Shown here piece after piece: positions 8,811 through 45,528 of a stretch of DNA of 64,000 bases; position 1 is the stretch's first letter, and each line of letters starts with the position of its first letter. Location of the stretch: contig CM040752.1 of NCBI GenBank assembly GCA_022829145.1, forward strand, positions 31,662,586 through 31,726,585, in the 5' to 3' direction. Source of the stretch: Albula goreensis. Lineage: Eukaryota; Chordata; Actinopteri; Albuliformes; Albulidae. Under the pieces are notes generated by a model. It was not told the DNA's origin and did no database searches. It saw only the letters and a program-made list of their open reading frames with translations. The translations under genes were made by a program, and so were the position numbers.

Positions 8811-45528
<36,718 letters not shown>

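Follow-up and report, generated by a model that had tools for sequence, protein, structure and literature searches.

The gene that we assign to grm6, on the minus strand of the 64,000-nucleotide stretch of Albula goreensis DNA analysed here (the window), is interrupted by two independent one-base losses, one in exon 6 and the other in exon 8, so that as written it contains no single open frame from start to stop. We infer that both losses are errors rather than mutations, most likely uncorrected consensus indels, and put a rough probability of 0.7 on this reading. The animal itself would then carry an ordinary, constrained grm6 with an uninterrupted reading frame, the fault lying solely in the assembly, where exons 6 and 8 have each lost a base. 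An assembly error is favoured because the two losses stand isolated in a coding sequence that is otherwise clean and constrained: no damage beyond them is seen in its 2,722 nt, and a possible start codon, the native stop and the splice sites are all intact.

Rebuilt from the sequence, grm6 has 10 coding exons, all on the minus strand. Coding exon 1 (44971..45528, 558 nt, GC 0.63) begins with a possible start codon at 45528-45526, the start at 45528 having been chosen among several possible ones. It is followed by exon 2 (28369..28585, 217 nt, GC 0.60), exon 3 (27327..27462, 136 nt), exon 4 (23348..23502, 155 nt), exon 5 (22724..22864, 141 nt), exon 6 (22107..22306, 200 nt and one base short, GC 0.62, with acceptor ...gtggcag and donor gtgagc), exon 7 (18221..18360, 140 nt), exon 8 (17432..18054, 623 nt and likewise one base short, GC 0.62), exon 9 (14688..14999, 312 nt, GC 0.61) and exon 10 (8811..9050, 240 nt), which carries the native stop TAG. 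The introns are of the GT-AG type in nine cases out of nine. Spliced as written, the exons come to 2,722 nt, which is not divisible by three, and fall into three native-frame pieces of 452, 95 and 358 codons, all free of internal stops, with third-position GC (each piece in its own frame) of 0.79, 0.77 and 0.93. Exons 3 and 4 share a codon (27327-27328 and 23502, minus strand), ATA, for Ile 304; the corresponding residue is Arg in human mGlu8 and Lys in human mGlu7, and the final exonic base of exon 3, ahead of the donor, is T. At the other end of the gene a splice-donor-like ACAAG/GTGAGG (8804-8810, minus strand) starts 5 nt past the native TAG of exon 10, so that past this exon the gene may have an intron in its 3' UTR or an alternative tail at the C-terminus; a motif scan of the minus strand downstream of exon 10 found no YISY/YVSY-type tails. 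Other elements in the window include two UnaL2 LINE 3' ends (Rfam RF00436) on the plus strand, at 27091-27144 inside intron 3 of grm6 and at 50840-50893, which are compatible with a teleost without proving one, a tandem array of about 59 copies of AAGGT (61180-61474) and another of 2.9 copies of an 82-bp unit (15941-16176).

At break 1 (22156..22160, minus strand) the Met codon 22163-22161 is separated from the Val codon 22155-22153 by five bases; in the human relatives two codons stand at this place. Ahead of it the minus strand reads ...GTC TGT GAG AAG ATG GAT CCG TGG..., that is VCEKMDPW (frame context ...GVCEKMDP), and behind it the 17 residues that continue the protein are read in another frame, from GTG 22155-22153. 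The change of frame is not a chance effect, because the pieces on both sides match human mGlu receptors: aa 305-451, before the break, align with human mGlu6 (1e-75), and the piece behind it, in its own frame, with human mGlu7 (2e-43) and mGlu6 (9.2e-40). The initial annotation, which had placed a broken frame in exon 6 at 22150..22162, was right that a base is missing here, as it was about the length of the exon, since 201 nt rather than 200 are required by the phases of the neighbouring exons. It was equally right that no intron separates the two frames; we have rejected an intron or an alternative splice over break 1, as the space between the frames is too small. The short G run that it offered as a cause is not supported, the base having been lost somewhere around five written bases, and no long homopolymer is present at either break.

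Beyond break 1 the shifted frame runs through exon 7 without a stop until it meets a TGA in exon 8 (17961..17963, minus strand), as the earlier reading had it and as translation of the spliced exons confirms. This stop comes after 546 codons (452 native and 94 past break 1), and the junction of exons 8 and 9 follows 529 nt downstream of it. What had been overlooked is that a second, independent one-base break sits at this very TGA. Break 2 (17957..17961, minus strand) again consists of five bases, between the Val codons 17964-17962 and 17956-17954, in place of two codons in the human relatives. The first part of exon 8, VEDMQWSGG...ERKKMV, and the second part, which opens behind the break with 13 residues and runs on, are in different frames, and the piece behind break 2 matches mGlu8 at 8.8e-96 and mGlu6 at 2e-94. 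Compensation of break 1 by break 2 is rejected, as both are one-base losses and their sum is two, not three. The two explanations first proposed, a consensus error or an inactivated gene, are both still the leading ones, but break 1 alone cannot explain the broken frame, and the initial label of ohnolog for the inactivated gene is conjectural. Any protein made from the gene as written would retain the bulk of the glutamate-binding domain but have neither the cysteine-rich nor the membrane domain, in agreement with the previously claimed loss of the membrane domain. A stop placed 529 nt before the next exon junction is expected to trigger nonsense-mediated decay, and with the TGA at 17963-17961 this would be the expected fate of the mRNA.

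Which receptor is encoded here? mGlu6 is a group III metabotropic glutamate receptor, the glutamate receptor of ON-bipolar cells, and the window gene resembles it (GRM6; grm6a and grm6b in teleosts) in the best human match of exons 4-6a and in the grouping of alignment columns, while it is unlike it in that its full-length scores are higher for human mGlu8 (1568 bits), mGlu7 (1545) and mGlu4 (1507) than for human mGlu6 (1501), and in that its written frame is broken twice. The comparison set contained human sequences only, taken from the PDB, with human mGlu6 rows covering aa 305-451 and 550-725 (322 usable columns). In these 322 columns, 18 group the window gene with human mGlu6 against mGlu7 and mGlu8 where those two are identical, while the other two possible groupings get 3 each; when mGlu4 replaces mGlu7 (192 columns), the mGlu6 grouping has 9 columns against 2 and 2. 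Human mGlu6 is itself divergent: it departs from the columns shared by mGlu7 and mGlu8 at 47 of 246, and the window gene at 32 of the same 246. Exons 4-6a have human mGlu6 as their best PDB match (1e-75); exons 1-3 (aa 54-303) match human mGlu8 at 1.4e-141. When the pieces are joined with X at the breaks, phmmer matches human mGlu6 over aa 55-881, so that the ligand-binding, cysteine-rich and seven-helix parts are all encoded in the native frames. Because the shared residues point to mGlu6 and exons 4-6a match mGlu6 best, the identity of the gene as grm6, also proposed in the initial annotation, is supported at the level of sequence comparison.

The gene does not look like one in long-standing decay. 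Human mGlu7 and human mGlu8 could both be aligned to it at 847 columns; two with X were dropped, leaving 845, and 61 of these, in which all three sequences differ, fall in no class. Changes private to one sequence number 72 in the window gene, 72 in human mGlu7 and 57 in human mGlu8. The mean BLOSUM62 score of these private changes is 0.56 for the window gene, 0.68 for mGlu8 and 0.96 for mGlu7, as compared to -0.45 for random changes in these codons, and negative scores make up 31%, 28% and 15% of them, respectively, against 50% for random changes. At columns identical in human mGlu6, mGlu7 and mGlu8 (within aa 305-451 and 550-725) the window gene differs at only 8 of 199, with a BLOSUM62 score of at least 0 in 6 of these 8 departures, while human mGlu6 differs at 23 columns where the window gene, mGlu7 and mGlu8 agree. 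Of 192 columns, 103 are the same in all four human group III receptors, and the window gene differs at 3 of these 103. On the assumption that the 8 private changes are all neutral, simple arithmetic allows for about 53 neutral substitutions over the whole coding length, or 2% of it. Such strong constraint suggests that grm6 was functional until recently, or still is, and any real loss would have to be recent, because at most ~53 neutral substitutions could have built up.

How likely is it that an assembly would drop two bases within one coding sequence? Isolated losses of this kind are typical of an assembly whose polishing is incomplete. PacBio CLR contigs before short-read polishing are described by the Vertebrate Genomes Project, in passages of PMC8081667, as having a per-base quality of Q30-35, with short indels as the commonest errors and a cause of frameshifts. 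Q30-35 translates into 0.9-2.7 expected errors per 2,722 nt and Q40, the level of good polishing, into about 0.3, by an arithmetic that uses the quality of PacBio CLR data, which may not be that of this assembly. Two false frameshifts of vertebrate assemblies are similar to the case of grm6: in excerpts of the respective papers, TLK1 at an unpolished hummingbird locus (PMC8081667) and PCDH17 in the older zebra finch assembly (PMC9516821) both have their written frame broken by short coding indels. They differ in that the false frameshifts of TLK1 and PCDH17 were settled by reads or a better assembly, while the breaks in grm6 are known from one assembly, and in that PCDH17 has false insertions in a 5'-proximal exon, while grm6 has bases missing in exons 6 and 8.

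For two older bird assemblies, PMC9516821 reports that false indels correlate with GC and are found mainly towards the 5' end of a gene. The 4-kb stretches around exons 6 and 8 of grm6 have a GC of 0.41-0.46, against 0.62 in both exons. Against GC as the cause, exons 1, 2 and 9 (0.63, 0.60 and 0.61) are about as GC-rich as exons 6 and 8 and are unbroken. Hairpin compression at the breaks was considered and rejected, as the folding energies there are ordinary (z of 1.00 and -0.12). CGTG is found at or beside both breaks; this is a post hoc observation, with 20 CGTG sites in total and 2.9% of coding positions near one. Elsewhere in the window, A/T homopolymers of 8, 9 and 10 bases number 15, 16 and 13, those of 11, 12 and 13 bases number 3, 1 and 1, and there are six runs of 15-23 bases; the drop in counts might reflect length compression in the assembly, although it is uncalibrated and the six longer runs speak against it. 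Genes that could serve as controls did not emerge from the flanks, where six-frame translations of 1-8400 and 46000-64000 had no Pfam-A match at E up to 0.001.

The main competitor of the assembly error is that the animal, or the sequenced haplotype, carries a copy of grm6 with two real frameshifts and was recently inactivated, which we regard as less likely but appreciably probable. Both breaks are, after all, present in the given sequence. Skipping of exon 6 is phase-neutral, yet it leaves break 2 in place and rescues no receptor, the product of 571 codons ending in a foreign frame. Two indels would be accompanied by about 20 neutral substitutions, and 20 such substitutions leave no nonsense codon with a chance of 0.55, so that over a short neutral time a lack of nonsense codons is uninformative. 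The loss of one copy would be tolerable in principle, as rod bipolar clusters of zebrafish express both grm6a and grm6b, according to a passage of PMC10525478, and a second teleost copy of this kind could by analogy compensate for the lost one. Opposed to this, the gene shows no sign of decay apart from its two breaks, and the ceiling of ~53 neutral substitutions (2% of its coding length) means that the loss would have to be recent. In its complete form, in which both breaks are real and fixed, this scenario would mean a very recent loss of one grm6 copy or of the whole gene, caught before any other decay, with ON-bipolar signalling resting on another copy or receptor, and that we consider slightly less probable still. 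A search of one collection of PMC papers found no report on a frameshifted grm6 in teleosts, and among the matches listed for single-base-deletion frameshifts in nanopore fish assemblies there was no title on grm6.

A different possibility is that the truncated product is functional, the soluble ligand-binding domain being kept while the membrane part decays. The distribution of changes along the gene gives it some encouragement, as the window gene shows a relative excess of private changes behind break 2, with 36 private to it against 38 private to mGlu7 or mGlu8, while ahead of break 1 the counts are 28 and 76 (Fisher p 0.004, in a test made without the middle piece, where the private changes are 8, 7 and 8). 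In exon 8b, however, 11 of the 17 private changes carry the human mGlu6 residue, and where human mGlu6 is included in the comparison the private changes are 4 of 113 columns in exon 8b against 4 of 86 in exons 4-6a. Judged by these residues, the excess is, as far as exon 8b is concerned, largely a matter of mGlu6-lineage traits and not of decay. The TGA is, moreover, placed where decay of the mRNA is expected. A functional truncated receptor thus appears very improbable. Least credible of all, with nothing found in its favour, is that a full receptor is made from grm6 as written by programmed -1 frameshifting, a tiny intron or an alternative exon: programmed frameshifting is rejected since a canonical -1 slippery heptamer (X XXY YYZ, with Y being A or T and Z not G) is absent within 60 nt upstream of each break, there is no space for an intron, two separate events would be required, and skipping exons 6 and 8 together, although in frame (632 codons), loses the part encoded by exon 8, which on the topology of these receptors is the cysteine-rich domain together with the first helices of the membrane part.

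We therefore return to consensus indels as the preferred explanation of both breaks. Taken at face value, the written grm6 would be added to the vision genes that have been lost. When a constrained gene shows two isolated one-base losses, this is instead a warning sign of false gene loss, and the breaks in grm6 should not be recorded as gene loss until they have been checked in the reads. Should the reads confirm them, a sighted fish that has just lost a copy of mGlu6 would provide a useful natural test of how work is shared between the two teleost copies.
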